This document shows, one piece after another, positions 27,191 through 47,319 of a DNA stretch of 64,000 nucleotides. The DNA lies in assembly GCF_007748175.1 (NCBI RefSeq), contig NZ_CP037422.1:5224334-5288333 (forward strand), given 5' to 3'. The position numbers and the translations under genes are program-made. The stretch is from Gimesia aquarii. Its GTDB lineage: Bacteria; Planctomycetota; Planctomycetia; Planctomycetales; Planctomycetaceae. The notes beneath the pieces were generated by a model. That model worked only from the letters and a program-made list of their open reading frames with translations. It had not been told where the DNA came from and did no database searches. Every line of letters starts with the position of its first letter. Position 1 is the first letter of the stretch.

Positions 27191-27526
27191 TCAGCAACTT
27201 CCGTTTCTTGTCGAGAAACTGGGAAAAGTCAGGCCAGGGAAAGAGCCTCCCGTTGCTTTCTCAGATCCATAAATTGGAGGGAGGGAGATACTACCCCATG
27301 AGAGAACCCAGCTATTGTCGTCTTCACAATTTAAGACATAGCTATAGTTAGTAGTGAGCCCTGTCCAGCTTGTTCCAGCGCCAATTAATGTGTTTTCAGG
27401 ATCGCCTGGGTCAAATTGGCTAGTGTCGAGACAGAGATAAGGAAAATTATATACTAATTCTTGGAGTTTAGCTGGATCGCAAGAAATATCATTTGGGGGA
27501 TTACAAGCGGGATTCGCATTGGGCAT
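27191..27526 (-). CDS. MPNSNPAC-leader small protein, family A (copy 1)
   Basis: The 111-residue protein starts MPNANPACNPPNDISCDPAK, then LQELVYNFPYLCLDTSQF, TSWTGLTTNYSYVLNC, WVLSWGSISLPPIYGSEKAT and ends SFPGLTFPSF...GSC with a Cys at the very end. It shares this layout with the 27616 and 37269 genes. There is no Sec signal peptide. A GGAG lies just before the ATG. The function is unknown; the spaced cysteines and aromatic, Gly/Ser-rich body suggest a beta-rich, disulfide-stabilised extracellular or surface protein, which is inference. Confidence 0.6.
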   Translation of the reverse strand: MPNANPACNPPNDISCDPAKLQELVYNFPYLCLDTSQFDPGDPENTLIGAGTSWTGLTTNYSYVLNCEDDNSWVLSWGSISLPPIYGSEKATGGSFPGLTFPSFSTRNGSC

Positions 27527-27615
27527 CTTTTTCTCCGTTATGGTTTTAATGTTTGTAAGAGGTTACGCAAGAATAGATTGCACATTTTTAGAGCTCTCAT
27601 TATTCTTGGGTAACT

Positions 27616-27960
27616 TCAGCAAAATCCCCCTGTTGTAGAGAAATTAGGAAAGATAAGATTAGGGAAAGAACCTCCTGTTGCATTTTCTGATCCTGAACTC
27701 CAAGGAGGGAAAATTTCATCCCATCCAACTTTCCAAGTATCCTCGCCTGAGCAAACTAAGCCATAATTATAACGCCCAGAAAGACCTTGCCAGCTAGTTC
27801 CAGCACCCCCAACGCCCAATAGCGTAGTTTCAGGATCATTAGGTTCAAATTTGCTAGCATCTAAACATAGATCGGGAAACCTCTCTACTAATTCATTTAG
27901 TTTAGCTGGATCACAGGTGACATCACTTGGTGGATTGCAAGCGGGATTTGAATTGGGCAT
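27616..27960 (-). CDS. MPNSNPAC-leader small protein, family A (copy 2)
   Basis: The 114-residue paralogue begins MPNSNPACNPPSDVTCDPAK, has LVERFPDLCLDASKFEPNDP, GTSWQGLSGRYNYGLVC and ends with ATGGSFPNLIFPNF and a terminal GGFC. It follows the same plan as its neighbour and as the 37269 gene ten kilobases away, including positions of cysteines. CGGAG precedes the ATG. Function unknown. Confidence 0.62.
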   Translation of the reverse strand: MPNSNPACNPPSDVTCDPAKLNELVERFPDLCLDASKFEPNDPETTLLGVGGAGTSWQGLSGRYNYGLVCSGEDTWKVGWDEIFPPWSSGSENATGGSFPNLIFPNFSTTGGFC

Positions 27961-28489: not shown

Positions 28490-29155
28490 TTATTCGTTGG
28501 TGAGATACGGTGGTCCGTAACCCCATTTTGAGACAATCTGCATTACATTTCCTTCAGACAGAGAGAACCCCCCAGAGGTTGTACTATTCTTCAAGTGCTC
28601 ATAGATGGTGTCGTTAGTTTTACGGATATATACAATACTACTATTGTCCCGTATTTGAACACCGCTCATGTCATTGAGATCGTCTGCACCGGTCAGCCTG
28701 AAAGAGGATTTGGCCGAATAATCTTTGTTTTCTGTAGATAAGATTGAGTAGTAGAAATCGGAATGCGGAAAAGCAGGAAGCGGCTCAGTTAAATAGGAAT
28801 CATATTTTTTATCGTTCATGATGTTATTTACATCTGACAAAGATTGAACAGACAGCGCTCCCGTTACATAGTTTCGATTTTCCTTGAGTAAAAACGTTCC
28901 GTTATCCCAGACTGCAAAGGTAATTTCGGGCTGAAACAGATCGTTAGGATATGGTGCAAATCGAGTTTGAAAAACGGCGATCATGGGCTTATTGAATAAA
29001 TAAGCTGGCATATCAGATGAAAGATCAAACTCACCTGAGAATTGTGATCGTTCCTCAGCCGGACGGGAAGCGCTGGTCGATATTCCACGGTGACAACTGG
29101 AAAGACAAGTACAAAATAATATCGAGATAAGTGTTATGATGTAACGGGCATACAT
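28490..29155 (-). CDS. Predicted lipoprotein downstream of the YD-repeat protein
   Basis: The 221-residue protein has a signal peptide ending in the lipobox LSSC (Cys21), so it should be lipid-anchored. The body has no recognised domain; it contains AYLFNKPMIAVFQTRFAPYP and FAVWDNGTFLLKENRNY. It begins 69 bases after the stop of the YD-repeat gene on the same strand, the place where RHS-type toxins usually have an immunity gene; that role is only a possibility. A methionine start with ACTGGAGGTAGT upstream is good. Confidence 0.6.
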   Translation of the reverse strand: MYARYIITLISILFCTCLSSCHRGISTSASRPAEERSQFSGEFDLSSDMPAYLFNKPMIAVFQTRFAPYPNDLFQPEITFAVWDNGTFLLKENRNYVTGALSVQSLSDVNNIMNDKKYDSYLTEPLPAFPHSDFYYSILSTENKDYSAKSSFRLTGADDLNDMSGVQIRDNSSIVYIRKTNDTIYEHLKNSTTSGGFSLSEGNVMQIVSKWGYGPPYLTNE

Positions 29156-29224: not shown

Positions 29225-32200
29225 CTAGGGAATGAAAGGTATTTTTAACGGATCATATCCACAATTTCTTAATACAAAATGCCTTTGAAAAGTAAAGTGT
29301 TGAACAAGTTTCTGCTGACACTTTTGACTCATTGGGAATTTTTTTAGTTCTTCTGGGTCTGTCATTAACACGTAGAACCTCTGGGCATCACGTGAGCGAG
29401 CACGACATTCTGATTTGTTAGGGTCTATCTCCGGCTTGAACGGAGGACGAACTATTGAGCAGTCATTTTTGTTACATTCGTTAACTTCGGGGAAGTGTAA
29501 ACGTTCATGGCTTTCTATGAATTTGTCTATTGTAGGGCATTCGCCTGGTTCATAATCAAGGCCTGGAGCGAAAGGACTAGGCCTTTGATGAATTGGAAAC
29601 AGACATATACACCTCACTCCACACTCACAAAATATAGCCCCACCGGCAGGATTACTAAATCTCTGGGGGTTTGCTTTATTAATTTTCTTTACATCTTTGC
29701 ATATGGATTTACATGTCCTTTTCTTTTTTCGTTTAAAAATTGGTGGAAGCGGAATGCGTGGAAATGTCCCTTTCTTTTTTTGTTGATACATCCCGGAAGG
29801 GTCACTTCGTAACAATGGATTGTTATTTACATAAGTAAATAAATTCATTCCATCCAGAAAACCTATAGGGTCAACGCTCGACCATCTTGCAATACCAGGA
29901 TCATATATCCGGTTGCGGATATGGTTGTTTCCTGTTTCAACATCAAGATAATAGCCCAACTCACCGATGAAACCCATGAAGACTAGCGTGGTACCACTAC
30001 GGCTGATAATATTACCCCAGGCATCGTAAATCCAAGTGTCAGTTATTGTCTCACTTTCGTTAGTTATTTCGCGTGTACTTCCTAGTACATCATAATGACA
30101 ATAATTGGTTTCTCCTGCTCGCCGTTGTGAAATCAGATTGCCGTATAAATGTGGTTCGTTAGTGTAGATGCAAGTGGTATTGCCAGAGGCATCTGTTTCC
30201 AAAAGATAGTTCTGTTCATCCCAGATAAACTTTGTTGTGCCTGAATTACTCTGTTTTTCAATACGCAACTTTTCGGCATTGTAAGACATGGTGATAATAT
30301 CGCCAATAGGTAATTCATACTGTGTAGGCTGATTCTCATAGTCCCACATTGATGTAGTCAAATCACCGTTTGGTTCCTGAACGAGCTGCTGGTTACCATC
30401 ATTGTCGAATATGTACGTTGTAATTCCGCTGGAATCGATAGATGTATTCAGCTGATTAGCAACATCATAGCTGTATGTGGTACGAAAACCGTTAGTAATT
30501 TTAACTAATCGATTTCCTGCCGGATCATAGGTAAACGTGTTGGAGTATGTATTTGGGCCGCTACGGTGTTCACTCAGGAGTTGGTATGAGTTATCATAAC
30601 CCCAAGTGACACGATCACCGCTCAGTTCCAATACGGAAGTACGATTACCAACATTGTCGTACTGATAATCAAACCTCGAGATGTAGCTGCTGATAGAATT
30701 CAGATTGGCCACCGTTTTGACATTGTTAGCATCATCATAATTGAAAGATGTCCGTGTGCCGTTCGCAAGTTTCTTCACTGTTCTGCGGTTCGCTGCATCA
30801 TAGCTGTAACTGGTTACTTGATTTTGCGGGTTTTCGAGATTTGTGATTTGCCCAGTAGAGTTAAATACATATGTAAATACACCTCCGTCAGGATCAGCCA
30901 TACGAATACGTTGCTCGTTCGCATCATAGGAGTAAGTGATTGCCTTGCCATCAGGATCGATCACTGACTTTTTTTGGTTCAGCGTATTATAAGAGGTCGT
31001 GTATCTACCAGTCACACTTGCCATGATAGTTCGATTGCCGACAGCGTCATAAGCGAATGTCACCCTTGTGCTATCAGGGTACTGTCGGCCTATTACCTGA
31101 TTGGCTGCATCGTGTGAATATGTTGTTCGGTAGCCACGAGCGTCAATTCGTAGGATTTTACGACCGCCCGCATCATAAGCAGAAGTTATGCACCGAAGTA
31201 ACGGGTTAATGACCCGTATTTCCCTTCCCGCTGCATCATATGTAAAGCTGGTGAGATTTCCATTCGAGTCAATCAAAGAAAGCTGCTTTCCATCCGCGTC
31301 ATAAATCGTTGTTACGCGATTCCCAAGAGCATTGATGCTTACAATCAATTGGCCTATTGCATCATAAACCATCGTTTGGATATTATTATTCGCATCTTTG
31401 ACTGCTACTTTCTGACCTGCTGCATCATAACTATATGTAATGCGGTTGCCAATTGGATCAATGGTATCGGTTGTCTGGCCGTTGGCGTTATAGATGGTCG
31501 TGGAAATATTCTCTAATGGATCAATCGTTTCGATGACTTGACCAACTACATCGTAGACTGTCGAGGAACGATTATTATCTGCATCAATGTAGGCAATCAC
31601 TTGACCAGCAGCATCAAAGATTGAAGTGCTACGATAGCCAAGTGGGTTCACTCTCGCTACATTTTGATCTGCTGCGTCATAAACCGAAGTATTACGATAA
31701 CCAAGTGGATTAATTCTAGCTATTGTGTTTCCATCAGCATCATACAGAGTCGTGCTTATAAAACCTAAAGCGTTTTGGAAAGCGACTGATTGGCCGACCT
31801 CATCATATGTAGTTGTGGATCGGTTATTTAATGGGTCGATACTCCCAATTATCTGGTTATTCGCATTATATACTACCGTGCTGCGGTTGAGCAGCGGATC
31901 GACATTGGCGATATCGCGGTCGTCAACATCGTAAACTGTTGTGTAGATGTCGCCTAGTGCATTGGTCGTAGCAACTTGATTGCCCCTGCTGTCGTAACTG
32001 TAGCTGCTGCGGAAGCCGAGTGGATTGATCTCGGCAACAAGCTGGTTGGCGGAGTCGTAGACTGCGGTGTTCCGATTACCAAGCGCATCTATAATTGCTA
32101 CAGTACGGCCAGCGGAATCGTAAAGAATTGTAGTGCGATAATCAATTGGATTGATTATAGTAATAGCCTGACTGGCAGAGTTATATATCGTCGTTGCTCT

Positions 32201-34543
32201 GTTATTCAGAGGATCAATGGTGGCAACATTTTGATTAAGCGCATCAAATAGACTTGTATTGCGAAAACCTAGAGCGTTTTCGGTGGCAATTAGGTTTCCG
32301 GTAAGATCGTAATTGAACGAAGTACGATTACCAAGAGGGTCAACAGTTGCTGCCACGCGGTTCAGGCTGTCATACACGATAGTTGAGATGCTATCGAGCG
32401 GGTCGGTATCCGCGATCTGATTGCCATCTGCGTCATAGCTATATGTAGTGCGGTTGCCGAGTGGTGTCACATTGGCGATCAGTCGGCTGGCGGAGTCATA
32501 GACATCCGTGGTGATGAAGCCTAGAGCGTTTTCGGTATGAATTTGGTTGCCACGCGAGTTATAGGCATAAGAAGTGCGGTTGCCCAGAGCATCGATTTGG
32601 GCCAGCACTTTGCCTTCCACATCGTAAACCGCTGAAGTCCGATCACCCAACGGATTGACTGTGGCAACTTGTTGTCCCAAAGAATTGTATATGTACGTAG
32701 TGCGATTCCCAGCTGCATTGATCATCGCCGAAATCTGATTAGACGGATTTCTTATATAAGTGGTGATTTCATTGAGTGGATTCGTGATGGCCACGTATTG
32801 GTTTTGTGCATTAAAACTAAAGCTGGTTCGATTGCCGAGTGGATCAATGGAGGCGATTTTGTTTCCGGATGTATCATAAACATTGGTACTGCGATTTCCC
32901 AATGGGTCGATACTGGCCAGAACTTGTCCGTCAGTGGTATAGACAGTCGAAAATCGATTTCCCAGTGCATTGACAACGGCGATGCGTTTGTGATCGGAGT
33001 TCCAGATGAGCGACGTCCGATTGCCTCGTTGATCGATAGTGGCACGCGTATAGCCATCTGTGTCATACAGATAAGTATAGATTCCACCATCGGGTTGAGT
33101 AATGTTTTTGACACGGCGCGTGCGGTTCCCGACTGTGACATGTGTGACGGAAGTGCGGTTTCCCTGAGCATTAACAATCGCATCCAAGACACCATTGTTC
33201 CAAAGGTAGGTTGTACGGTTGCCCAATGAATTGATGACCCCAGCTGGGGTATAGCCGGCATCATAAAGATAAGTGGTGACATTGCCGAGGGGATCGGTGA
33301 TTGTGTTTTCAAAGAGCGAATAAGTGTAACTGGTGATGGCGCCGGAGGCTTCTTCCACAGTCTTGACACGGTTACTGGAATCGTAGGTGTAGGATATCGT
33401 GTTTCCTTCTGAGTTCTGATACGCCTTGACACGATGGCTGCTGTCGTAGGCAAAGGTTGTAATGTTGCCTGCTGGGTTTTGGGTACGAATCAAGTTCCCA
33501 TTGGAATCGATTGTGTAACTTGTGATGCGATTGCTGGAGTCGGTAATACTTTTGAGTTTATTATTGGTGTCATAGCTGTAAGTCGTACGGCTGGTTTTAG
33601 GGTCAATGATGGCCGATAGTAAATCCCCATCACGTACGACCGTCCATATTTCTCCAACGGGAGAAACTTTCTTAGTCAACATGCCTGATGAGTCGTATTC
33701 GAACCGCATGCCGCTCGGTTGTGTCTCGGTCCAGGTTCCGTTGGAATTTTTCTTGAGAGAATTATTAGTACCGGGAGGTGCGGCATAGACGCCGTTTCCG
33801 TCTTGATTGTCGTATTGAAACCCGGATCCATTACCGGTCACGACGAGCGCTGAGTCACTGTCAATGGCAGAGACCGTGGGGTTATATAAATCAGCCCAGC
33901 CATTTCCAAATTGAATCGTACCGGCTGCGGCTGATGAGTTATAGTTGAGGTTCAAACTTGGAGAAAACACACCTGTTTGAGGTGGGGTAATACTGAAATT
34001 GACATTACCGGTGCCAAGATTGATTGTTCCAGGACCTGGATTGGGGACATTGGGATTCGCTTGCGATTGGACCAGATTGACCATACTTGCTGCATTTTTG
34101 AGTGGGTCGTTAGCTGGCTGAACGCCTCCGTTACATCCGCAACTGTCGCTGTTACACCCACAACTACCACTACCACTTCCTTTGTTATTATCACTCCTCA
34201 ACCACCCGATACCAGTACCACCAGGAGGTCCACCAGGAGGTCCACCAGGAGGTCCACCAGGAGGTCCACCAGGAGGTCCACCAGGAGGTCCACCACACTT
34301 CGTTGGTTGACAGACCTTCTTGCAATCATTTGTTAATATTGTATTGCATCCACTAATTGTCGAATCCTGAATCGGATCTTTCTGAGTTGCGCCACAACCG
34401 CAATCACCTGGATCCCCGGCAGCTTCTCCTTTTGTATTAGTACCACTTGAATCGCAAGATGGCTCTCCACAAGTGGTGCAACAACAGATCAAGTCTGGGT
34501 TCACAGTAGTTACTGTTGGCTGGGTACAGCAATTGTCTGGCAT
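29225..34543 (-). CDS. Giant RHS / YD-repeat protein with Cys-rich N-terminus and variable C-terminal domain
   Basis: The 1772-residue protein has four parts. Residues 1 to about 150 are very rich in Cys (MPDNCCTQ, ICCCTTCGEPSC, CGCNSDSCGCN) and include a Gly-Gly-Pro-Pro tract; no signal peptide is seen. Residues about 165-330 are a beta-rich YD-start region. About 330-1500 hold dozens of YD repeats near 21 residues with the theme DPLGNRTS / YDxxGxxIA. The RHS core follows (IRNRIYDPGIARWSSVDPIG, YVNNNPLLRSDPSG near 1580). The last 190 residues are a different, Cys-containing domain with ESHERLHFPEVNEC, an HExxH near 1678. RHS proteins form hollow shells around a C-terminal toxin; a metallopeptidase-type end is my inference. 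AAGGAAG precedes the ATG. Confidence 0.88.
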   Translation of the reverse strand: MPDNCCTQPTVTTVNPDLICCCTTCGEPSCDSSGTNTKGEAAGDPGDCGCGATQKDPIQDSTISGCNTILTNDCKKVCQPTKCGGPPGGPPGGPPGGPPGGPPGGPPGGTGIGWLRSDNNKGSGSGSCGCNSDSCGCNGGVQPANDPLKNAASMVNLVQSQANPNVPNPGPGTINLGTGNVNFSITPPQTGVFSPSLNLNYNSSAAAGTIQFGNGWADLYNPTVSAIDSDSALVVTGNGSGFQYDNQDGNGVYAAPPGTNNSLKKNSNGTWTETQPSGMRFEYDSSGMLTKKVSPVGEIWTVVRDGDLLSAIIDPKTSRTTYSYDTNNKLKSITDSSNRITSYTIDSNGNLIRTQNPAGNITTFAYDSSHRVKAYQNSEGNTISYTYDSSNRVKTVEEASGAITSYTYSLFENTITDPLGNVTTYLYDAGYTPAGVINSLGNRTTYLWNNGVLDAIVNAQGNRTSVTHVTVGNRTRRVKNITQPDGGIYTYLYDTDGYTRATIDQRGNRTSLIWNSDHKRIAVVNALGNRFSTVYTTDGQVLASIDPLGNRSTNVYDTSGNKIASIDPLGNRTSFSFNAQNQYVAITNPLNEITTYIRNPSNQISAMINAAGNRTTYIYNSLGQQVATVNPLGDRTSAVYDVEGKVLAQIDALGNRTSYAYNSRGNQIHTENALGFITTDVYDSASRLIANVTPLGNRTTYSYDADGNQIADTDPLDSISTIVYDSLNRVAATVDPLGNRTSFNYDLTGNLIATENALGFRNTSLFDALNQNVATIDPLNNRATTIYNSASQAITIINPIDYRTTILYDSAGRTVAIIDALGNRNTAVYDSANQLVAEINPLGFRSSYSYDSRGNQVATTNALGDIYTTVYDVDDRDIANVDPLLNRSTVVYNANNQIIGSIDPLNNRSTTTYDEVGQSVAFQNALGFISTTLYDADGNTIARINPLGYRNTSVYDAADQNVARVNPLGYRSTSIFDAAGQVIAYIDADNNRSSTVYDVVGQVIETIDPLENISTTIYNANGQTTDTIDPIGNRITYSYDAAGQKVAVKDANNNIQTMVYDAIGQLIVSINALGNRVTTIYDADGKQLSLIDSNGNLTSFTYDAAGREIRVINPLLRCITSAYDAGGRKILRIDARGYRTTYSHDAANQVIGRQYPDSTRVTFAYDAVGNRTIMASVTGRYTTSYNTLNQKKSVIDPDGKAITYSYDANEQRIRMADPDGGVFTYVFNSTGQITNLENPQNQVTSYSYDAANRRTVKKLANGTRTSFNYDDANNVKTVANLNSISSYISRFDYQYDNVGNRTSVLELSGDRVTWGYDNSYQLLSEHRSGPNTYSNTFTYDPAGNRLVKITNGFRTTYSYDVANQLNTSIDSSGITTYIFDNDGNQQLVQEPNGDLTTSMWDYENQPTQYELPIGDIITMSYNAEKLRIEKQSNSGTTKFIWDEQNYLLETDASGNTTCIYTNEPHLYGNLISQRRAGETNYCHYDVLGSTREITNESETITDTWIYDAWGNIISRSGTTLVFMGFIGELGYYLDVETGNNHIRNRIYDPGIARWSSVDPIGFLDGMNLFTYVNNNPLLRSDPSGMYQQKKKGTFPRIPLPPIFKRKKKRTCKSICKDVKKINKANPQRFSNPAGGAIFCECGVRCICLFPIHQRPSPFAPGLDYEPGECPTIDKFIESHERLHFPEVNECNKNDCSIVRPPFKPEIDPNKSECRARSRDAQRFYVLMTDPEELKKFPMSQKCQQKLVQHFTFQRHFVLRNCGYDPLKIPFIP
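34219..34290 (-). repeat. Six perfect 12-bp tandem repeats encoding Gly-Gly-Pro-Pro
   Basis: The unit CCACCAGGAGGT (plus strand) is repeated six times without change, then continues half a unit. It encodes the GGPP tract near residue 90 of the YD-repeat protein. As 12 is a multiple of three, copy-number slippage would change linker length without breaking the frame. Confidence 0.95.
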
Positions 34544-34607: not shown

Positions 34608-36638
34608 TTAAATTTTTTCTTCAATCAGGACATTGCTTGTTTGTTTCTCAACAGCATTTTCTGGATTCACAGTCCACTTATTGAGTGGGCAACGTTCGGA
34701 ATCCCAGAGGGCTTTGACTCTCAACGTGCAGCCACAACTTTTGTGTTTACAAACCATGCGACTGGTATCACACATTTCACATGCTTGACATGTTGAGAGT
34801 CGTGTGTTGTAGGTTGCTTCATCGACGTGTTTACTTCCGTTGGTGACATGTCGGGCGACTGCTTTGGTAAAATTAAAGGCTTTTCGCATCATGCCGGGTT
34901 CTGATGACTCAACAGAATTTTCTGATACCGCCTGCAAATTTTGACCGGGGCCGGCGCCTTTTTCCCAAAGCTCAAAATAATCGGTCCGGGTTTGGCAGAG
35001 CTTATGAAAGTGAGGATGCTTTTTGCATTGGTGCCGTTCACACCAACCTGGCTCGGCACATTCACAGTCTGTCTTGGATGATTGTTTCGGTTTCATGATT
35101 TCGGACTCCAACGCACCACTGTGCTGTGAAAAACAGGACCAGTTGACTTTGGCCTGAAAGCCTGTTGTCTTCAGACGCGCGTAAAATGCAATATCAAAAT
35201 CGGGCATATTGTGTAAGGCAGTGAATACATTATCCCTAATGGTGGAAGCCCGTAGAATCGTGCAGCCAAATCCATTACCCCCGACAACTTCTTCTTGATA
35301 ACCCAGCTTCTCATAAGAAGCACCCGCCTGATTCCAGACCACAAAACCCTTATGAAACCGAGAGGGGTAGGGGGCCGCGACCGAGACCGTTTTTGGATCG
35401 AAGCAGGAAAGTAGCTGCTGGCAGACGTCGTCAGGGGGGACGATGTCATCTTCCAGAATCCAGACAAATTCCGAATCCACCATCCGCAACATACGATTGT
35501 AGATGCGGGCCATGGCGAATCGAACCTGATCACGAATATCAGGTAGACGCCGATTTTCATCGGCCAATCCAGAAAGACCAGCATCAAATTTTAAATAACG
35601 CACATCACGATAATCACAATCTTCGATCCAGTCTCTGACGGTTTGCGAAAATTCCTCACATTGGCTGGTATCCATCAACACCAGGGAAATCTGATCGTGA
35701 GGCCAGGTTTGTCGCTCCAGGACACCAGCTGTCAGTGGCCAATGTTCCACTCGGCCAGAAAGAGGAATGAACAGCATGATTTTCTGATGAGCCAGACCTG
35801 CGTATTCAAAATAGCTACGCTGTTCGGCCGTTTGCATTTGCTGAGTCCAGTTGGTTTTGTGGATGCGGTAGTGATAGAGGGCCTTTTGTTTTCTGGCGGT
35901 CCAGGTTCTGCCCAATACTTCCCGCCAGAGAAACCAATCTCCTTGTGTGAGCAGGGGGTCAATTTGTTTTTCAAAGACACGACTCAACTCAATCGCTTCA
36001 CTTAACGCCAAACTGCCAGCATGAATAAAATTGTCGAACTGGAGTTGGTCGGCAGAGTAGGTTTCGGGATAGTTGGAGCAACCTTGTCGTTTACCAAAAA
36101 ACTGAGTATCAGAATAGACAACGGCCACCTGGTAATGATCGAACTGTTCTAATCCTTTTTCAAGATAGTCTTCGGAAAGCCTGTCATCGGCATCGAGGAA
36201 GCATGTAATTTCAGAATTCGTTGCTTCAAAGCCGGCTCCACGGGCTGCATGCACATTACCCACATCCACAGACAAATATTTCACGCCTTGCCGTTGATAG
36301 GATTGAGCGATCTCTTTGGTATCATCCGTGGAGCGATCATCGACCACAAGAATTTCGCGAGGTTTGTAAGTCTGGGCCAAGACACTATCAATCGCCTCAC
36401 GCAAAAAGGCTCCATAATTATGCGAGATAATGACGACGGCAACAGAGAAATCTTTGAGTCGTCTGCGATAGCGGCGGGATTTTTTCTCTGAGGGACTTAA
36501 CTGGCCAGGTCCTATTCCCTTTTCCCACATTTTAAAATAGTCAGATCGTGTCTGACACAAATGAAAAAAGTGTTTTGGCTTATGGCAATTATGCCGTTGA
36601 CACCATCCTGATTGACTACATTCGCATTCCGTTGACAT
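34608..36638 (-). CDS. Two-domain glycosyltransferase with duplicated CxC/His modules and zinc-ribbon end
   Basis: The 676-residue protein starts with a cysteine/histidine module (CECSQSGWCQRHNCHK and HLCQTRSDYFKMWEKGIGPG, residues 5-45). A family 2 glycosyltransferase domain follows at about 65-270 (VVIISHNYGAFLREAIDSVL, ILVVDDRSTDD, CFLDADDRLSEDY), then a second transferase-like domain at about 275-510 (WILEDDIVPPDDV). Near residues 518-560 the N-terminal module recurs (CECAEPGWCERHQCKK). At about 613-650 is a small Zn-ribbon, CQACEMCD...CKHKSCGC and CPLNKW. It probably builds surface glycan. Why it carries two copies of the Cys/His module is unknown. Confidence 0.8.
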   Translation of the reverse strand: MSTECECSQSGWCQRHNCHKPKHFFHLCQTRSDYFKMWEKGIGPGQLSPSEKKSRRYRRRLKDFSVAVVIISHNYGAFLREAIDSVLAQTYKPREILVVDDRSTDDTKEIAQSYQRQGVKYLSVDVGNVHAARGAGFEATNSEITCFLDADDRLSEDYLEKGLEQFDHYQVAVVYSDTQFFGKRQGCSNYPETYSADQLQFDNFIHAGSLALSEAIELSRVFEKQIDPLLTQGDWFLWREVLGRTWTARKQKALYHYRIHKTNWTQQMQTAEQRSYFEYAGLAHQKIMLFIPLSGRVEHWPLTAGVLERQTWPHDQISLVLMDTSQCEEFSQTVRDWIEDCDYRDVRYLKFDAGLSGLADENRRLPDIRDQVRFAMARIYNRMLRMVDSEFVWILEDDIVPPDDVCQQLLSCFDPKTVSVAAPYPSRFHKGFVVWNQAGASYEKLGYQEEVVGGNGFGCTILRASTIRDNVFTALHNMPDFDIAFYARLKTTGFQAKVNWSCFSQHSGALESEIMKPKQSSKTDCECAEPGWCERHQCKKHPHFHKLCQTRTDYFELWEKGAGPGQNLQAVSENSVESSEPGMMRKAFNFTKAVARHVTNGSKHVDEATYNTRLSTCQACEMCDTSRMVCKHKSCGCTLRVKALWDSERCPLNKWTVNPENAVEKQTSNVLIEEKI

Positions 36639-37778: not shown

Positions 37779-38167
37779 TCAATCAGTTTTTTCGAAAATA
37801 CTGGAATTATGTATGCAGGTATATTCAGTATAGGATTCCTTGAGAACTGTTAAGGTGAGGGCGGTGTCCAGGGTAAAGTCGTATTGAATTGGACTGCAGG
37901 AACTGTCGGAACAATCTTTTAGTTGATATGTGACTCCATCCGTGAGTTGCACGACACAATTAGTCAGGTAGTCAGGCAATCAAAAGCGTGAGGCCAGCCA
38001 GCGCCACTTGAGGTCGTCCAGGCATAACCGAGACCACCACCTTCAAGGACTTGATTAATGGGGGGAGGCCCTACCAGATAGAGAAACCGCGGAAGGTCTG
38101 CAGCAGGACCGAAACATTCTTCGCAAGCAGAATAAGGGGGCTGACAAGCCGAATTGGAATTAGGCAT
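37779..38167 (-). pseudogene. MPNSN-leader protein, family C, frameshifted by an 8-bp tandem duplication
   Basis: From ATG 38167 the frame reads MPNSNSACQPPYSACEECFG, LPRFLYLVGPPPINQ and HAFDC, then stops at 37964. A second frame starting nearby continues CVVQLTDGVTYQLKDCSDSS, CSPIQYDFTLDTALTLTVL. The two are separated by TAGTCAGG repeated exactly twice (37961-37976); removing one copy restores a single frame of about 126 residues. The joined protein ends with a CSPIQYDF ... TLTV pattern like family B. GAAAGGAA precedes the ATG. Either an inactive allele or a switchable one. Confidence 0.7.
37961..37976. repeat. 8-bp direct tandem duplication causing a frameshift
   Basis: TAGTCAGG occurs twice head to tail inside the coding region of the family C gene. 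Eight bases shift the frame; the single-copy version keeps it open across the junction (HAFDC-LTN-CVVQL). Confidence 0.9.
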
Positions 38168-38762: not shown

Positions 38763-38859
38763 CATTGTTTCCTTTCGAAGTCGAGGCTAAGCTCGCTAGT
38801 TTATCTGGATCATAAGTAATATCACTTGGTGGGTTACAAGTAGGATTTGAATTCGGCAT
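38737..38859 (-). pseudogene. Truncated family A leader gene fused into the next gene's upstream region
   Basis: An ATG at 38859 starts MPNSNPTCNPPSDITYDPDK and LASLASTSKGNND, then a TAG at 38737. The first 21 codons are a family A start; the rest is the leader and first codons of the family B gene read in another frame. So a family A gene was cut after about 21 codons and joined to the upstream sequence of a family B gene. AAAAGGAAACACA precedes the ATG and may still be used. Confidence 0.6.
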
Positions 38860-38948: not shown

Positions 38949-41900
38949 TCAGACCGAATGCAATAACTGTGCGGCTTCGTTATGACCGGGACACAGTCGC
39001 AATGTCTCATGCCAGGCACTTTTAGCACAGAGGCAATCTCCTTCGTTCTGGTATGCATGACCAAGCAGGTGCCAGGTTGCTGCGGATTCTGGTCTAAGTT
39101 CTAACGATTTTTTGTAGTTGGCGATGGCTTTCTCACACTGATTGAGCTGTAAAAACGTGGTACCCAGGTTATGAAACGCGGACGCATCGTTTGGATCTTT
39201 TTCAGCCAGAGTTTGTAATACCGACAATGACTTTTCAGGAGATGACCGTTCAAAATTGAGACGACACAGTTCGCGGAGCAACTCGATGGCCTGTGGTTTT
39301 TGGTCGAGCTTCTTCTGAAGTTGTACGATAGCCTGATCCGGCTTTCCTTGTCGTTCCAGAAGTCGTGCTGAAAGAATGAAACCATCAATGTGAGTTTCCT
39401 CCTGACCACGCATTCTCATGGCTAACTGCTCGACTTGTTCCAGCTTATCGGCTTTGAGGAGCGTTTCTCCCAGACATTTCCAGGCAGTGGTATAAGTCGG
39501 AATTTCTTTGATGATCAGGCGCCATTGTGCTTCTGCTTCTTCGAGCTTTCCCATTTCATCGTAGACAATGGCCAGGTTGTGTCGCGTCTTATAACCACAG
39601 AGTCCCACATCAATACTAGTAAAGTGGCGGTCGGTCTGTTCATTGATGACACGCAGGTAGGTTTTTTCGGCATCAAGCAACCGGCCGAAGTGATGCTGCA
39701 ACATTGCCTGTCGAAACAGAAGTTCTTTATCACTAGGAAAATGGCTCAGACCTTGACTGCAATAGTCCCAGGCGTCCTGGTGTTGCTCATTTTGAGACAG
39801 GGCATTGACCAGTAACGCGTAGGCCTTGCGGACTTGCGATTCACCTGGATCAGAGACTCCCAGGCACTGTTTTAAATATTTGATCGCTTCAGGGTATTTT
39901 TCATCATCTGCGTACGTCATGCCCAAATTGAACAACACAAAAGGATGATTGGGACGTTCTCTGTTATCTAATTTAAGCAGCCGGTAGTCGCGTTCCAACT
40001 TGCGTTTACGACCTTCTACACTATGGTCTGAGCCTGAATGCACGACGTACAAATCGGTCCAGGCCACCTCTCCTCCCAACCTTCTAATAGCAGGGATAAT
40101 TTGTTCGTGAATCCTATGTTCAAACTGTAACTCAGGATGATTGCGGAAGAGCTTCACATGATCTACGGCTGTCATACTGACATCCCATTCAGGGCCCGGA
40201 CAGTGAACCTGCATAATATATCCCAGAGTACGATCAGGGTGAGACTGTGCAGCTAGTGCTTTCAGTTTTTTGCCACACTCGGCAGTGATCGTATCATCGG
40301 AGTCCATCCAAAAAATCCATTTCCCCTGTGCGTATTTAATGGATTCATTACGGGCAGCTGAAAAGTCGTCACACCAGGGAAATTCAAACATGCGGGCACC
40401 ATACTCACGGCAGATCTCAGGAGTCCGATCAACAGAACCAGTATCAACGACAATCATTTCATCCACCCAAGGCTGAATACTTTCCAGACAAGGGCCGATG
40501 GTGTCTTCATTATCGCGGACAATCATGCAGAGTGAGAGTGTGTGTGGATAGTCAGTGTCGTCAGTCACCGATGTTTCCACCGATTCTTCCTTTGGTCTCA
40601 AATCTGACTGCCATTTCTTACGGTACTTTCGCTCGTTTTCCTGCATGATGCCGGCAAAGTCAGCCCCTGATCCAATGAAGGAGCGACTCCCAAAATGATG
40701 CACGAATGCGCCGACTGCGATGACAGTTCGATAACCGGCTGTGATGGCCCTTCGACAAAAATCATCATCCTCAAAGCAGCCAATCCCAAATTGTTCATCC
40801 AATGTTCCAATTTGATTGACGACTTCCCGCTTCATGAGCATACAAAACCCCACGAGTCGTTCTTCATCAAGGGATTGCTGATCATGGCGTTTGCCCCAGT
40901 CCCAGGCAAATCCATCGAGACTCGACAAATCGGTATAAGAAATTGGAATTTGTTGTGGGCCACTCACGTTATTGGAAACGGGGCCGACAATTCCGATCTC
41001 TGCTGAGGAATGAAGTTGTGTCAACAAACGATTTAGCCAACCGGTTGTCAGGAGAGTATCATTATTCAGGAGCAAGATATTGTTGCCGGAAGCGATTTCT
41101 ATGCCTTGATTCACGGCAGCCGGAAAACCACGATTTTCGGAGTTGAGAATGAATTTTGCGTCAGCAAGTGTGTTTAAATAAGCGGGCGTTCCGTCTGTTG
41201 ACCCGTTGTCAACGAAAATCAATTCGTAAGGTTCATCGGTTCGCATCCTCAAACTATCAATGCACTGTTGGGTGTATGGCAATTGATTATGGGTCACAAT
41301 GATGATAGAGGTTAAACCATAATCGGGTTGTGGCCGCTTTGTAGCTGTGACTAAATATTGATAAGCATAGAATTCTTCCACTTCTTCAGGAGGGAGCCCG
41401 TCAATGTGTAAGTTACCGATTTGGATTTTCCCAGGGTAACCCTGTGTTTGCCATTCCTGGTAGCCAGGTCCCGGCACAATTTGGAGTTTGTCGATTTGAT
41501 ATCCCGCACGAAAGAAGAGCTTTTCAATTTCGCGTCGGGTAAAGAAGCGATAGTGGGTTTGATCGAGTAATCCTGCGCATTCGTAAGTCCAGTTGCCTTC
41601 CATCAGCCCAGTCAGCACGCTTTGATTTCTGACATTGGGAATACTGGCCACAATTGTGCCTTCCGGAGTCAGCCAGTTCGCGATTTTGTTGAGGACTTGT
41701 TCGGGTGCCTTTAAGTGTTCAAGCACGTCTGCACAAACGACACAATCAAACTCCGCCTCTTGAAATTCCTCAGAGAGGGCTTCGATATTGTTTTGAATCA
41801 CCCGGTCAAGCCGTTGTTGAGCAGTTTCGGCGGCAAAGCGATCCAGTTCGACTCCGGTCACAGTTGCGGATTGCCGTTGTTTGAGGGATTCCCCTAAGCG

Positions 41901-43643
41901 TCCCGATCCACAGCCCAAATCGAGTATGTTGTGTGCTGTGGAAGGAACCAGCGTCACTACTTCAGGACGTGGGAATTCGAAATAACTACGGTCCTGTTGG
42001 GGGGGCGACTTGGAATCACTGGCTTGGGGAGCATGAGTACTGGTCTTATTGGCAGGTTTAGAGCAGGGAGTCTGTTGAAGAAGTGTGAGCGCACGCTCAA
42101 CGGCCTGGTCGCTTAGCTCTAAATGGTCATCGCGAACCGAAAGGGCTTCAGTTCCACTCGCGCCTTCAAGATCCGTTACTTGGGCTAACAGTGATTGATG
42201 ACGTTGGTTTAAAAGCAAGGAAAAAAAACGATCTGCTTTTCGGATTAGCAGCTCGTCTTCTCCAAATTCTTCACGATACGCTTCCAAAACACTGACCCAC
42301 TCTTTTTGAAAAAAAGCGCCCCAGCCCACGAGGGCCATTTGTGCTTGACCAAAACAATTCGTGGCATTTTCAAACAAGTGCGGATGTTTCAGTCCATGTG
42401 TAATTCGATCTGGAGATGCCAGAAACGATTCATACAGTTCAGGGATGTTATGCACGAGGCAGTCGTCGTCCTGAGTATAGATAATGGGGTGTTTGGCACG
42501 CTGTGCGCACAAAAAGCGTCCGTAGGTGACCTGGTTTTGCTCGGACTGGATGACATGTACGCCCTCTACTTCGATGTCGAGATGGATTTCCGGATTATTA
42601 TTCCAGACCAAGATATCGTCGATAAACGGGTAGCGTCGTAAGTCTGTGACAATCTGCGCGATATTTTGAGGACGTTTCCAGGAGAGCAGGCACGCCGATA
42701 CCGATTGGTCAGGCAAGTGAATTTGATAGTTTGGTTGCCTGATTTCTAGATCGGACGAGGGGACAAACACAGAATTGGTGGGAGGCATCGAAACACTAGT
42801 TTTCGCTGGATGAGTTTCGATTGAAGCCAGTAGTGATTGCATACGATGTTGATATGTGTGTTGGGAGACAGCAAGTTTATGCCCCTGCCGGGCAATTTTG
42901 TTGCGTTCTGTTTCTCGCTTCAAATAATAATCCATTTTGTCACAGAGCTCTTCAAGGCACTGGTAAGTTACCAAGTGCTTACCGTCTGTAAACAACTCTG
43001 CTTGTCCATTCTCGGAAAGATCATTGGTGAGTAGCAGACCGCCACAGCCCAAGGCTTCAAACACACGCATGTTAACGTCATTTTTGACACTGCGATTAAA
43101 GATCACATGCGAGGCCGCATAGGTACGGGCCATCTCTTCAAAGTAGGTTTGACCGATAAAACAGTCGGGATACTTCTCATTAAGAGATTCGAGCAGTGCA
43201 CAGCGTTCCTGTCCCACCAGATTCCCGACAAACGAAAAATCATACTGTTTCGGTTCTGAATAAGGCCGGTGAATTTCCGGATCACAGGCCAAAGGTAGCC
43301 AGAGTGCCGATACAATACCCTCATGCTGCAGTCTCTCTGCCCCGTCATTCTGAGCGGCAAACACAAAGTCATAACGCGCCGTTTTTTCGAGGCACCATTC
43401 GAAATTCATATGCGTATCAATTACCCAGCACGCGGCAGGCCTGAGGTGATCCGGTAAGTGATATTGGAACCCATCGTCGATATTGAGAAACAAGTCGAAT
43501 TTTCCTGTGGGGATCTCTGAGATCTCTTCCGGGATGAAATGTTCGACTTCAACAAGGCTTCCTAAGGCGCGTCGGCAATAAAAACCTGTTGTTTCAGGCC
43601 GAGCCTGATTATCAAAAATGAGGGCGATGCGTTTAATCGTCAT
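38949..43643 (-). CDS. Multidomain glycosyltransferase-methyltransferase-TPR protein
   Basis: The 1564-residue protein strings together several modules. About 1-290 is a CgeB-like glycosyltransferase (FDLFLNIDDGFQYHLPD, RVFEALGCGGLLLTNDLSEN). About 310-520 is a second transferase-like unit (SVSACLLSWKRPQNIAQIV, YTQDDDCLVHNIPE). About 570-710 is a class I methyltransferase (ILDLGCGSGRLGESL). About 775-1010 is a family 2 transferase (IIIVTHNQLPYTQQCIDSLR, LLLNNDTLLTTGWLN). About 1035-1180 is another family 2 domain (SLCMIVRDNEDTIGPCLESI, WMDSDDTIT). TPR repeats fill about 1228-1564. Such fusions suggest one protein that builds and caps a surface glycan with the TPR part as a binding platform. 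It starts 20 bases after the methyltransferase gene. Confidence 0.85.
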   Translation of the reverse strand: MTIKRIALIFDNQARPETTGFYCRRALGSLVEVEHFIPEEISEIPTGKFDLFLNIDDGFQYHLPDHLRPAACWVIDTHMNFEWCLEKTARYDFVFAAQNDGAERLQHEGIVSALWLPLACDPEIHRPYSEPKQYDFSFVGNLVGQERCALLESLNEKYPDCFIGQTYFEEMARTYAASHVIFNRSVKNDVNMRVFEALGCGGLLLTNDLSENGQAELFTDGKHLVTYQCLEELCDKMDYYLKRETERNKIARQGHKLAVSQHTYQHRMQSLLASIETHPAKTSVSMPPTNSVFVPSSDLEIRQPNYQIHLPDQSVSACLLSWKRPQNIAQIVTDLRRYPFIDDILVWNNNPEIHLDIEVEGVHVIQSEQNQVTYGRFLCAQRAKHPIIYTQDDDCLVHNIPELYESFLASPDRITHGLKHPHLFENATNCFGQAQMALVGWGAFFQKEWVSVLEAYREEFGEDELLIRKADRFFSLLLNQRHQSLLAQVTDLEGASGTEALSVRDDHLELSDQAVERALTLLQQTPCSKPANKTSTHAPQASDSKSPPQQDRSYFEFPRPEVVTLVPSTAHNILDLGCGSGRLGESLKQRQSATVTGVELDRFAAETAQQRLDRVIQNNIEALSEEFQEAEFDCVVCADVLEHLKAPEQVLNKIANWLTPEGTIVASIPNVRNQSVLTGLMEGNWTYECAGLLDQTHYRFFTRREIEKLFFRAGYQIDKLQIVPGPGYQEWQTQGYPGKIQIGNLHIDGLPPEEVEEFYAYQYLVTATKRPQPDYGLTSIIIVTHNQLPYTQQCIDSLRMRTDEPYELIFVDNGSTDGTPAYLNTLADAKFILNSENRGFPAAVNQGIEIASGNNILLLNNDTLLTTGWLNRLLTQLHSSAEIGIVGPVSNNVSGPQQIPISYTDLSSLDGFAWDWGKRHDQQSLDEERLVGFCMLMKREVVNQIGTLDEQFGIGCFEDDDFCRRAITAGYRTVIAVGAFVHHFGSRSFIGSGADFAGIMQENERKYRKKWQSDLRPKEESVETSVTDDTDYPHTLSLCMIVRDNEDTIGPCLESIQPWVDEMIVVDTGSVDRTPEICREYGARMFEFPWCDDFSAARNESIKYAQGKWIFWMDSDDTITAECGKKLKALAAQSHPDRTLGYIMQVHCPGPEWDVSMTAVDHVKLFRNHPELQFEHRIHEQIIPAIRRLGGEVAWTDLYVVHSGSDHSVEGRKRKLERDYRLLKLDNRERPNHPFVLFNLGMTYADDEKYPEAIKYLKQCLGVSDPGESQVRKAYALLVNALSQNEQHQDAWDYCSQGLSHFPSDKELLFRQAMLQHHFGRLLDAEKTYLRVINEQTDRHFTSIDVGLCGYKTRHNLAIVYDEMGKLEEAEAQWRLIIKEIPTYTTAWKCLGETLLKADKLEQVEQLAMRMRGQEETHIDGFILSARLLERQGKPDQAIVQLQKKLDQKPQAIELLRELCRLNFERSSPEKSLSVLQTLAEKDPNDASAFHNLGTTFLQLNQCEKAIANYKKSLELRPESAATWHLLGHAYQNEGDCLCAKSAWHETLRLCPGHNEAAQLLHSV

Positions 43644-43663
43644 GTGATCTCTCTATGCTGTAA

Positions 43664-44260
43664 TTATCGGGCTTTAATGGCAAAGCAGTACAAATCATTG
43701 GCTGCCGTGTTATGATTGAGATAAAGCTCTTCAAAGGAGGTTTCTCTTATCCAATCCAAGAACATCCTCAGGCTCACATTTTGATAATAGTCTGGATTGG
43801 GACCAAACAGTTCCCCTGTTCGTGATGTTCCATGCTCCTTGCGTCCCTCCCCTGCGCAGGTCATAAAAAAGAGTCCACCGGGACGTAAGAGTGATAACAT
43901 GTGAGCAACCGTTTTGTCGGCATAGGGGTCATGCTCAAATGTCTCTAGAGAGCAAACTACATCAAAGGATTCAGGATTAGCCTCAAATTCATGTCCCAAG
44001 CAGACCTGATCAACGCCGTTACCGGTTTCTGCATCAATGCCCATATAATCACAGTCTGCAAACTGATCACGAACGGAACCATTCACGTCACGAGATCCTA
44101 CTTCCAGGACCCGTTTGTTCTGGAAGCAGTCAGGAAAGCGATGTTTCACAGTTTGACAAAACTCTTGTTGTTCGCGATGAGCCACGGCATTCCCTTCCCA
44201 TCCCTTAGTTTGATACGACACACCTACTTTGATTGAAGAGTCGTTTGTAATCTCGTTCAA
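43664..44260 (-). CDS. SAM-dependent methyltransferase
   Basis: The 198-residue protein has motif I RVLEVGSRDVNGSVRDQF (residues 50-67), DYMGIDAETGNGVDQVCLGH at motif II, and FDVVCSLETFEHDPYADKTV and LLRPGGLFFMTCAGEG further on. The substrate is unknown. Its predicted start lies inside the end of the upstream glycosyltransferase gene (56-base overlap); a later start is possible. Sits in a glycosyltransferase operon, so a sugar methylation role is likely. Confidence 0.78.
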   Translation of the reverse strand: MNEITNDSSIKVGVSYQTKGWEGNAVAHREQQEFCQTVKHRFPDCFQNKRVLEVGSRDVNGSVRDQFADCDYMGIDAETGNGVDQVCLGHEFEANPESFDVVCSLETFEHDPYADKTVAHMLSLLRPGGLFFMTCAGEGRKEHGTSRTGELFGPNPDYYQNVSLRMFLDWIRETSFEELYLNHNTAANDLYCFAIKAR

Positions 44261-46469
44261 TCACATCGCCCCATCGAAAACGTTCCTCGAAGACAGCCCT
44301 CCCTGCCTCTCCCAATGTTTTCATTCGCTCTGGTCGATCTAGTAGTTGGTTTAACTTCGAAACCCAATCTGCGACGTCCCCCGGGTTACAGAGCAGCCCA
44401 GTTTCCTGATCGGAAACGCTACAGGGTAGTCCTCCAATGTGGCTGGCTATTACCGGTAAGCCACAGGCCATCGCTTCCACCGAGGTACGACTGAGTCCAT
44501 CAGGAACAATGGTCGGAACGGCGCAGAGATCACAGTGTCGATACCAAAGGGGAAGTTCTAACTGTGATTTCCAGCCCACATATTTCGTGAACTCCTGTTG
44601 TTGCTGAGGAGAGTCCGAAGTTACTATCAATTCAAAGTCCTGGCGTGTTTCCCATAACTGCTCACACGCTGCCAGCAAAACAGGAAACCCTTTAATCGGT
44701 TCATGAACCAGGCCTGCAAAGATAACAGATATCTTGTCTTTGCTGATTTCAGGAGGGCATTGTTCGTCAGAAGGAAAAGGCCAGGGGAAACGCGATTCAT
44801 CCATGCCCCAGGTGACCACTTCCACGTGATTGCAAAACGGTTTATATTGTTTGGCAATCATCGGATTCAGGACCAGCACCGCTTCCGCTTTATGAAAGGA
44901 CTGCTGTAAAAGATCATGATATTCAGAAGACCCGACACCACTCAACTGTCGTTCCAGTTGATGAAGTTCGCCAGAGCGATTTTTGATCAGGCAGTGAAAG
45001 CAGTCTTCGGAATTGAAAAATTGATTCTGGGGGCAAGGAGTTAATCCCTCTGGTCCCGGGAGCATTTGCAGGTTATTCAAAGGGCACAGGCATTCTTGCG
45101 CCTGCATTCGCAAGAAGTAAGGATAGTCACTCACGGCTTCCGCCAAATGCGGCTTGAAATTCCAACTGTCTGTAATGATCACAAAATCCGGATCAAAATC
45201 GTAAACAGCGTCTTTTACTCGTTTACGAATATGATTTGCATTCCATTCAGAGGGAGTAAAATTCAAAACTTGGCTTGGAATGGGGGCATCGGACTCGATT
45301 TGGCCAATTTGCCAAGGATCATAGCGGACACAGATATGTTGAACATCGTATCCAGCCCGGCCTAAAAATTGGACTAATTCTGTGGTGTGAATATTACCGC
45401 CACCCGTGGAAGGCCAGTTATATAGAAAACTGACAATGCCAATTTTGGTGTTTTCAACAGAATTGGTTTCAAGGTTAGAATGAAAAGAATAATTTCTTTG
45501 GGGTGAAGCTGCTTTTGTTTCACGAGGCGTACTTTGCCGTTTTTCTCTCTGGGATTCTGTCGTATTCAGGGTGGTGTCGATGATGGTTTTCAAACGTTTC
45601 CCGATGTTTTCACGTGAGAGTGTTTCCCGTAAGTCTGATGCAAACTCAATCGTTTTGGTTCGATATTCCTCAGAGAACCAATAGTCCTGATCCTCTACTG
45701 CGGCGACTTCAAATCCTAATCTGGCCAGATGCTTGACACTGGAGCTATCCCGGTTCATGGCCAACGGTAAACCCGAGGCCAAATGATCAATGGCTTTGGC
45801 GGGAGGTTTATGTCTGGCTCGAAAGTCGGTTCCTTTAACGTCAATCGCGCTGCTGGCAAGTTCGGCCCAGGCAACGTGTTTGGGGGGTGTCCAGTGTTCA
45901 ATACGAATGGAATGCTTGCTAGCGAATCCCAAGTTCTCTTGAGGAATCGAGTCTATTTCCGGTTCAAGGTTGGTCAAAATCCACAGTTCTTGTGGCAAGG
46001 AATGCTGGTTCACCCATTCAATTAAAGGATGCAGATTGGAGTGAAGGCCAGTCCACAAAATTGGTCCCTCGGCTGGTTTGGGGGTCAGGGTTTTCGAAAT
46101 AAAACGCAGATGGTGATCAATGTATTCTACAGGCGCATACGCACAAAAATATTTTCTAAGAGACTCGCAGTGAATCAGAATCTGCCGACATTGAAACAGC
46201 CATTTCCCATCGCGATCAATGTCTCGGGCCGATCCATAACAGTCAACCGGGCAAAAGATGACTGGGATGTCTGGCGACCTGGAACTCATTAACTTTGAGA
46301 AATCATATTTGACGATGAGGGCCAGATCACAGGCGGGGATGGAGTCTGAAAAGAATTCGATGTCATAGAATTGTGAGAGCTCTTCGGCCATCTCTTCGCC
46401 GATCCACTCCCAAGATCCAATGCCGGGATAAACAGGTCCAATACCAATACAAGGGTGAGAAGTTCTCAT
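44205..46469 (-). CDS. Two-part glycosyltransferase (GT4-type C-terminal half)
   Basis: The 754-residue protein has an N-terminal transferase-like half (about 1-310; IGIGPVYPGIGSWEWIGEEM, ending in DLRETLSRENIGKRL) and a C-terminal half of the GT-B family 4 type (about 340-745). The latter has IGIVSFLYNWPSTGGGNIHT, VIFAGLVHEPIKGFPVLLAA and the donor-site block LSRTSVEAMACGLPVIASHI. It also has a cysteine cluster (CLCPLN, CPQNQFFNSEDCFHC) in the middle, an uncommon insertion that may bind metal. It is the first gene of the three-gene glycan operon. Confidence 0.82.
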   Translation of the reverse strand: MRTSHPCIGIGPVYPGIGSWEWIGEEMAEELSQFYDIEFFSDSIPACDLALIVKYDFSKLMSSRSPDIPVIFCPVDCYGSARDIDRDGKWLFQCRQILIHCESLRKYFCAYAPVEYIDHHLRFISKTLTPKPAEGPILWTGLHSNLHPLIEWVNQHSLPQELWILTNLEPEIDSIPQENLGFASKHSIRIEHWTPPKHVAWAELASSAIDVKGTDFRARHKPPAKAIDHLASGLPLAMNRDSSSVKHLARLGFEVAAVEDQDYWFSEEYRTKTIEFASDLRETLSRENIGKRLKTIIDTTLNTTESQREKRQSTPRETKAASPQRNYSFHSNLETNSVENTKIGIVSFLYNWPSTGGGNIHTTELVQFLGRAGYDVQHICVRYDPWQIGQIESDAPIPSQVLNFTPSEWNANHIRKRVKDAVYDFDPDFVIITDSWNFKPHLAEAVSDYPYFLRMQAQECLCPLNNLQMLPGPEGLTPCPQNQFFNSEDCFHCLIKNRSGELHQLERQLSGVGSSEYHDLLQQSFHKAEAVLVLNPMIAKQYKPFCNHVEVVTWGMDESRFPWPFPSDEQCPPEISKDKISVIFAGLVHEPIKGFPVLLAACEQLWETRQDFELIVTSDSPQQQQEFTKYVGWKSQLELPLWYRHCDLCAVPTIVPDGLSRTSVEAMACGLPVIASHIGGLPCSVSDQETGLLCNPGDVADWVSKLNQLLDRPERMKTLGEAGRAVFEERFRWGDVIERDYKRLFNQSRCVVSN

Positions 46470-46833
46470 TTACTTTCTGCCAATACAAAACGCGTTTCAA
46501 CAAAGTCGTTGGGTAACCGATTTCAAAATCAGGCGACTGTTGAGAACAATCCGTCAATTTGTTGATACTGAACACGGATCTGGCTTTGTGGGGGAAGTTT
46601 ATAAAACTAAGAAACTGTTCCCACATATAGTGTGATATTATGTTACGTTTGTGATTCGTAGAATCAAGTCTGATTTGAAAATTTACCTACGCATTACGTG
46701 AATAAATAATCACTTGTTTGTGGGTGGGTTTTGCTGGAGTATTTTCTCGGACCATGGAGAAAATAAGAGCGATGGGAGTGAACAACACATGATTTTGAAT
46801 TCCGACCACTAGCTTACCTTACCAATATAATTA
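46470..46833. other. Intergenic region upstream of the glycan operon
   Basis: About 360 bases with no supported gene between the family B gene end and the glycosyltransferase start. A promoter for the leftward operon is expected here; none could be assigned with confidence. Confidence 0.3.
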
Positions 46834-47319
46834 TTAAGTTATCTGTAGAGTAAACGATATCTCTTCATTGTATTGATAATAATATCCAACTTGAAATGGG
46901 CTGCATTGACAGCTAGTTATGTCATTCGAACCCAATGCAGCCTCTGAAAGTAGTGGAAAAAGACCTGTTGTATCACAAGGACCTGGAGTTGCATTTGGAG
47001 TATCCTCTTCAAAATCGTACGCGTCAAGGTGCCATCCACATAATGGAAATGCGGATTCTATGTCATATATTACATTAAACCCAAATATCTTTGTTTTTAC
47101 TCCATTCACTGTTTCGCAGACAAATGATATTTGTCCTTCCCAAATACATGGAGTTTGGTAGTAGTTTTTTAAAGTTACAGTTCCAGTGCTGGTGTTAACA
47201 CCATCAGTTAAATCATAGTCTACCTGGAGTGTATTTGGGAGAGGATAGGATGTCCCTCCTGATTCACAGTCACAATGGTACGTTTGAGGAAGGGTACAAG
47301 CTGGATTTGAATTAGGCAT
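46834..47319 (-). CDS. MPNSNPAC-leader protein, family B (copy 2)
   Basis: The 161-residue protein begins MPNSNPACTLPQTYHCDCES, then YPLPNTLQVDYDLTDGVN, GQISFVCETVNGVKTKIFGF, CGWHLDAYDF, SCQCSPFQVGYYYQ and ends SFTLQIT. It is the closest relative of the 38280 gene, on the other side of the three glycan genes. TTTGAAAGGAAACAA precedes the ATG, nearly the same leader as its paralogue. Function unknown. Confidence 0.62.
   Translation of the reverse strand: MPNSNPACTLPQTYHCDCESGGTSYPLPNTLQVDYDLTDGVNTSTGTVTLKNYYQTPCIWEGQISFVCETVNGVKTKIFGFNVIYDIESAFPLCGWHLDAYDFEEDTPNATPGPCDTTGLFPLLSEAALGSNDITSCQCSPFQVGYYYQYNEEISFTLQIT

Follow-up and report, generated by a model that had tools for sequence, protein, structure and literature searches.

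An N-terminal N-P-x(1,2)-C tag on Cys-rich proteins of planctomycete YD-repeat loci: a possible docking or sorting signal

The stretch of the Gimesia aquarii genome analyzed here (the window, 64,000 nucleotides of contig NZ_CP037422.1, corresponding to C1:5224334-5288333 of the 7.2 Mb single-contig genome G000) contains a locus at positions 24730-47319 that is encoded entirely on the minus strand. It is composed of genes for glycosyltransferases (GTs), methyltransferases, a sulfotransferase-like protein, a 1772-residue YD/RHS-repeat giant, and a set of small tagged proteins. As the first-pass annotation had noted, MPNSNPAC or a variant of it starts several genes, namely seven genes or gene pieces, all on the minus strand. 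Looser forms of this tag in related loci of other planctomycete genera suggest a signal for docking or sorting that has not been described. In what follows, G and L numbers denote genomes and fetched stretches, respectively, and "RH" and "tail" are module names coined in this analysis. The genes of the locus are as follows:

24730..25536 (-): conserved protein with HIWP, FYGHAKG, and WHYSGT motifs, no Pfam match over the cut-off; presumably glycosyltransferase-like
25644..26303 (-): S-adenosylmethionine methyltransferase (PF13489, 1.7e-8)
26409..27014 (-): protein without a Pfam match, which we take to be sulfotransferase-like; a similar gene lies beside type A genes in G016
27191..27526 (-): type A tagged small protein (MPNANPAC); ratio of nonsynonymous to synonymous substitution rates (dN/dS) 0.13 against the G016 orthologue
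27616..27960 (-): type A tagged small protein (MPNSNPAC); dN/dS 0.22 against the G016 orthologue; AlphaFold2 (AF2) model of low confidence
28490..29155 (-): small lipoprotein-like protein directly behind the YD gene, with a hydrophobic N-terminus and no Pfam match; candidate immunity or partner protein
29225..34543 (-): YD/RHS-repeat giant with a Cys-rich N-terminus (MPDNCC); PF05593, 8e-125, 20 stretches
34608..36638 (-): GT2 glycosyltransferase with two RH Cys/His modules and a tail Cys module (the RH/tail protein); PF00535 4.5e-33, phrog_13558 5.9e-14
36673..37098 (-): Cys-domain protein without an NPxC tag, 10 Cys, 73% identical in G016, no Pfam match
37269..37604 (-): type A tagged small protein (MPSSNPAC)
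37779..38167 (-): type C tagged protein, start 38167 (MPNSNSAC, thus NSAC rather than NPAC), frameshifted, with overlapping frames 37964-38167 and 37779-37979
38280..38762 (-): type B tagged small protein (MPNSNPVC), with another ATG at 38765
38763..38859 (-): type A remnant (MPNSNPTC), start 38859, body missing, ending where the type B gene begins
38949..43643 (-): multi-domain glycosyltransferase/methyltransferase/tetratricopeptide repeat (TPR) protein (the GT/TPR giant); PF00535 5.5e-53, PF13524, PF13489, TPRs
43664..44260 (-): methyltransferase (PF13489, 5.4e-10)
44205..46469 (-): GT4 glycosyltransferase (PF13692, 4.3e-23)
46834..47319 (-): type B tagged small protein, 56% identical to the 38280 protein

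The gene at 36673 was missing from the first-pass gene list, and the truncated copy placed there at 38737 is the type A remnant that starts at 38859. The frameshifted type C copy and this remnant, cut by the type B gene, indicate that the tagged set turns over. Beyond the window, the genome encodes an eighth tagged copy (C1:1846749), and the sister genome G016 has five more. When codons 2-8 of these 13 genes were compared (eight from G000, including the remnant and the broken copy, and five from G016), the proportion of nonsynonymous differences (pN) was 0.084 and that of synonymous differences (pS) was 0.775, with synonymous sites near saturation; P2, N5, and C8 were invariant as residues. 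The high pS and low pN indicate that the likeness of the tags reflects constraint at the protein level and not recent copying of DNA. The dN/dS of the two type B genes was 0.55, besides the values of 0.13 and 0.22 for the type A orthologue pairs listed above. A codon pattern for MPN[..]NPxC matched four of 397 genomes of the class and was real in only two of them (five matches in G000 and four in G016), the two further matches having a stop or Trp at codon 4; a reversed control pattern gave no match among the matches listed. The type A profile likewise found full-length matches only in G000 and G016 among 59 genomes searched, its own included. The expectation that the leader alone would be widespread among planctomycetes was thus not borne out for its exact form.

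The bodies behind the leader are of several types. The 36673 protein served as the first seed of a Cys-rich domain family, and an iterated hidden Markov model (HMM) run over 5562 unique open reading frames (ORFs) of the fetched loci gathered 27 proteins, with none of the reversed and shuffled ORFs matching at E<10. Body D, found in G016, bears the leader and is 30% identical to the untagged 36673-37098 protein; when left out of the seed it rejoined the family with an E of 2.3e-10, or 1.6e-6 from the smallest seed. Type B was recruited by the HMM when the first seed was used (E 8e-5 and 8.4e-8). It is counted as a family member because of a profile comparison in which two type B bodies without the leader were aligned to 25 family rows without B: the match extended across the whole domain with a probability of 95.3% and a score of 48.8, the best of 150 column shuffles reaching 22.7. 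Judged by their sequence profiles, D and B are members of one Cys-rich domain family. Type A follows the family collinearly in the order T-L, W-x-G, L-x-C, W-x-L, L-x-F, which is suggestive of a distant member at most. Type E comprises two G082 proteins of 96 and 98 residues starting with MGFRNPTC and MAVRNPTC, for which a relation to the family was not detected (HMM E 0.15, one of the two proteins scored). The idea of one start joined to unlike bodies therefore stands in so far as several body types carry the tag and type E appears unrelated, whereas B and D fall into one family and A may be a distant member of it.

The AF2 model of the 36673 protein has eight strands (predicted local distance difference test, pLDDT, 82.5; predicted template modelling score 0.81), and the domain is accordingly predicted to be a Cys-rich all-beta barrel. 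Domain profiles matched nine of 297 genomes of the class at E<=0.01, with three weak matches not borne out, four of 392 genomes of the phylum (11 candidates scored per genome), and 15 of 170 genomes of the family at E<=0.001. Pfam gave no match for 13 proteins (three of type A, two of type B, 36673, D, and six others: two from G082 and one each from G143, G069, G764, and G012), and an immunoglobulin-like Pfam match in L081 precedes the Cys domain. NCBIfam and PHROGs gave no match for 36673, D, one type A, one type B, and three multi-domain members. Neither the tag nor the domain was found described in the literature searched.

When the family was considered as a whole, a looser tag, N-P-x(1,2)-C near the start, became apparent; the motif was first noticed on the family set and then counted. 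It occurs within the first 30 residues of 14 of the 17 single-domain stand-alone members, directly preceding the domain, and after residue 30 in none of them (0/17). Outside G000 and G016, 11 of 12 stand-alone members from five other genera bear it, against a mean of 0.94 in composition-keeping shuffles, none of 20,000 of which reached 11; the 12 members, contributed by five genomes, are not independent of one another. Among 415 unique gene-like ORFs (at least 100 residues, from stretches of at least 8 kb chosen for this system, hence a local background), 21 had the motif within their first 40 residues, all of them from this system; two are YD giants (starting with MENPCC and MSNPCDC), and the other 19 are tagged or Cys proteins. 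In raw stop-to-stop frames the motif was found in 36 of 4151, nine of them unrelated by reading. Five genomes were newly examined for the domain with an HMM that kept the tag columns, a mild bias; four had members, and the sole stand-alone one (G764) has NPTPC.

The neighborhood also recurs in other genera, with GTs, the RH/tail protein, and a YD giant beside tagged proteins. The order GT/TPR giant, Cys or tagged proteins, RH/tail protein, and YD giant is common to the window, G016, G082, G143, G069, and G090, and G764 shows the order of the window locus up to the contig end. In G069, four tandem tagged proteins and one additional ORF lie ahead of the RH/tail gene. The RH/tail protein is fused to a GT2 in some loci, including that of the window. 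Of 20 fetched stretches that contain a Cys-domain ORF (taking L051 and L052 as two), 12 have an RH/tail gene no more than 3 kb downstream of it in the same orientation. In the class, 73 of 387 genomes have RH/tail matches, many of them limited to the tail part. The Cys domain itself forms the N-terminus of YD proteins in L090 and L147 (by HMM) and in L089 (by eye). It is also found in phage-like loci, within proteins near head-tail adaptor (L081) or minor tail (L148) genes, and in L142 a tail module is situated next to genes for a tape measure protein and a collagen-like fibre. A prophage-like gene adjoining a tape measure gene matches phrog_13558 (3.1e-16). The YD-repeat island is present in few genomes of its genus.

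Regarding the YD giants, pairs of tip ORFs in separate frames, similar in their core but differing at their ends, were seen by eye in G016 (552730, 556704) and G143 (L086 15209, 16795), and no exchangeable tips were identified by eye in the window itself. The main YD frame stops just ahead of the tip, with the tip in a separate frame directly after it, in L052 (G016 547895-553998), L086 (10482-15925), and L140 (3906-9781), which may reflect a split gene, a frameshift, or a sequencing error; unlike the YD genes of these three genomes, that of the window runs as one frame. Its tip (29225-29974, -) contains HERLH, an HExxH metallopeptidase-like string, and neither the tip nor the 28490 product matched Pfam. 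PPGG repeats lie within its Cys-rich N-terminal portion (34200-34300, -). The G016 locus (L051/L052, C1:530000-569999) is flanked on one side by what we take to be a tyrosine-recombinase-like gene with TraD-like ORFs and on the other by presumed DNA-modification-like genes, and from these flanks the sister locus looks like a mobile island. A second locus of the window's genome with a GT/TPR gene and a tail module (L149, G000:C1:4034000-4053000) yielded no Cys-domain ORF by HMM, and no YD gene was noticed in that stretch. Motifs HIMP and WHYSGT, akin to those of the 24730 protein, recur in a 405-aa protein of L078 adjoining Cys-domain genes. At the edge of the region, a tRNA-like piece (48040-48110, -) was not called by ARAGORN, and a tRNA-Lys is located at 49597; positions 5105-23436 presumably hold an alternative ATP synthase operon adjoining a NiFe hydrogenase gene cluster.

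Export signals were assessed by hydropathy only, as the 11-residue maximum within the first 45 residues, with no signal predictor. This maximum ranged from -0.04 to 1.29 in tagged Gimesia-like proteins (five of the window and D of G016), was 1.06 in the window's YD giant, and rose to 1.86 in tagged proteins of other genera, compared with 2.27-3.35 for three control proteins and 2.61 for the 28490 product. A Sec-like hydrophobic start was absent from the five tagged window proteins scored, in agreement with the earlier remark that the leader is not hydrophobic, and from the window's YD giant. In G069, protein 13613, whose start is uncertain, has a hydrophobic run ahead of the tag. The window's genome gave no match to the type VI secretion system (T6SS) sheath VipB/TssC (PF05943), which is present in two of the nine system genomes (G090 and G764), nor to a phage sheath. 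Ten of 11 tagged Gimesia-like proteins have an odd number of Cys, the untagged pair having 10 and 10, and one type A copy is devoid of both C32 and the last Cys. The odd counts and the joint loss of two Cys fit a spare Cys in the tag.

Several known systems resemble this one. RHS polymorphic toxins, as outlined in the available portion of Zhang et al. 2012 (PMC3482391), include HExxH toxin classes, with planctomycetes listed. The present locus is similar to them in its YD giant, the alternative C-terminal tips of its relatives, the HExxH string in the tip, and the small gene behind; it differs in the lack of matches to a T6SS or phage sheath in the window's genome, in a YD start that is not Sec-like, and in its separate tagged Cys barrels, RH/tail protein, and many transferases. 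YTV proteins, in the portion of PMC8567305 that describes them, are Cys-rich and belong to planctomycete cell walls. Compared by that description, the tagged proteins are likewise planctomycete, Cys-rich, and possibly at the surface, but each is a small single domain, linked to YD loci and present in a small number of genomes. A phage protein of no assigned function, phrog_13558, is matched by the tail module of the window's GT2 protein; unlike in that phage setting, the module is here joined to a glycosyltransferase, and the YD locus encoding it is a cellular one.

We tentatively favor the possibility that tag and barrel together serve for docking or trafficking in a YD-repeat (RHS) island that resembles polymorphic toxin systems. 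The tagged barrels would be N-terminal modules that have become detached and that dock or convey the YD giant; the RH/tail module may recognize them, and the linked transferases may decorate them. The tag Cys could be the site at which a barrel is anchored, cross-linked, or modified, and the YD giant would thereby be brought to the envelope or retained there. Recognition, modification, export, and any toxic role are what we infer from the gene and protein anatomy described above. The broader proposal, that N-P-x(1,2)-C is a Sec-independent planctomycete sorting or modification tag read by a GT-coupled RH/tail protein and bringing Cys barrels and YD giants to the surface, appears rather unlikely as a whole.

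A number of observations weigh against a docking or trafficking role. RH/tail follows in only five of the 10 loci fetched by Cys matches alone, no exporter was recognized among the genes scanned, and NPxC is present in only two of 13 YD N-termini examined. The tag is missing from 36673 and its G016 orthologue, from one of two G027 proteins, and from two multi-domain G082 proteins. The first HMM seed contained two altered rows, and from exact seeds type B did not join, its best E being 0.0055. Type A bodies joined no family HMM run; without the leader they scored 22.5 against the family (probability 15.5%), the maximum of 150 shuffles being 21.1, and in an earlier comparison 21.0 (9.5%), with a maximum of 16.5 in 60 shuffles. 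The AF2 model of type A is poor (pLDDT 60.9), placing strands on T-L, W-x-G, L-x-C, and W-x-L, the first four of its motifs. Fold searches gave no match of weight, including none in BFVD at E<=0.001. Finally, the Cys number is even in six of the eight tagged proteins counted outside the genus, which speaks against a spare tag Cys and has slightly lowered our confidence.

These even counts favor the main rival, a doubtful but serious one, in which NPxC is the N-terminal edge of one fast-diverging family, its Cys engaged in an internal disulfide, with no signal or recognition involved. Most classifiable tagged bodies do belong to one family, type A is collinear with it, and the tag directly precedes the domain. 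On the other hand, 36673 is a case of the domain occurring without the tag, one Cys is left over in the 10 odd-numbered Gimesia-like members, and the tag is also borne by type E bodies and by two YD giants, one of which (L141) has no domain match. The type E bodies and the two giants speak against a purely structural edge without settling the matter. It seems improbable that the tandem, fast-diverging small proteins act as immunity proteins or chaperones that neutralize or fold variable YD tips. Such a role would agree with the one to four diverged copies arrayed next to YD giants, with the alternative tips in some of these loci, and with the turnover of genes in the window, but the small proteins are mostly upstream, by the GT genes (although two of type A are encoded downstream of the YD giant), the domain is joined to the N-termini of YD proteins and not to tips, and the gene behind the YD giant encodes a different, lipoprotein-like protein.

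Somewhat less probable still is that the barrels are domesticated phage virion parts, that is, tail or head-tail accessory domains that still bind a receptor or sugars at the cell surface. The domain near the head-tail adaptor and minor tail genes and the tail module of L142 are consistent with a phage connection, yet the three copies tallied from phage-like contexts (L080, L081, and L148) are untagged, the BFVD search was empty, and the window's genome has no sheath match. One leader on several bodies, with transferases nearby, also resembles the precursors of ribosomally synthesized, modified peptides, in which a common leader precedes variable cores. This is highly improbable given bodies of 100-160 residues and the absence of a peptide-modifying enzyme among the 15 intact genes of 24730-47319, for which Pfam gave, over the cut-off, only GT, methyltransferase, TPR, and RHS matches and a marginal pXO2-34 match in the YD protein.

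To our knowledge, the route by which RHS/YD giants reach the surface without a recognized T6SS sheath is not settled. Here, a constrained tag is common to partner proteins and some YD giants and adjoins a candidate reader, so that this route could be tested with point mutants. The finding also connects an undescribed Cys-rich domain with prophages of planctomycetes and with a glycan-rich YD locus.

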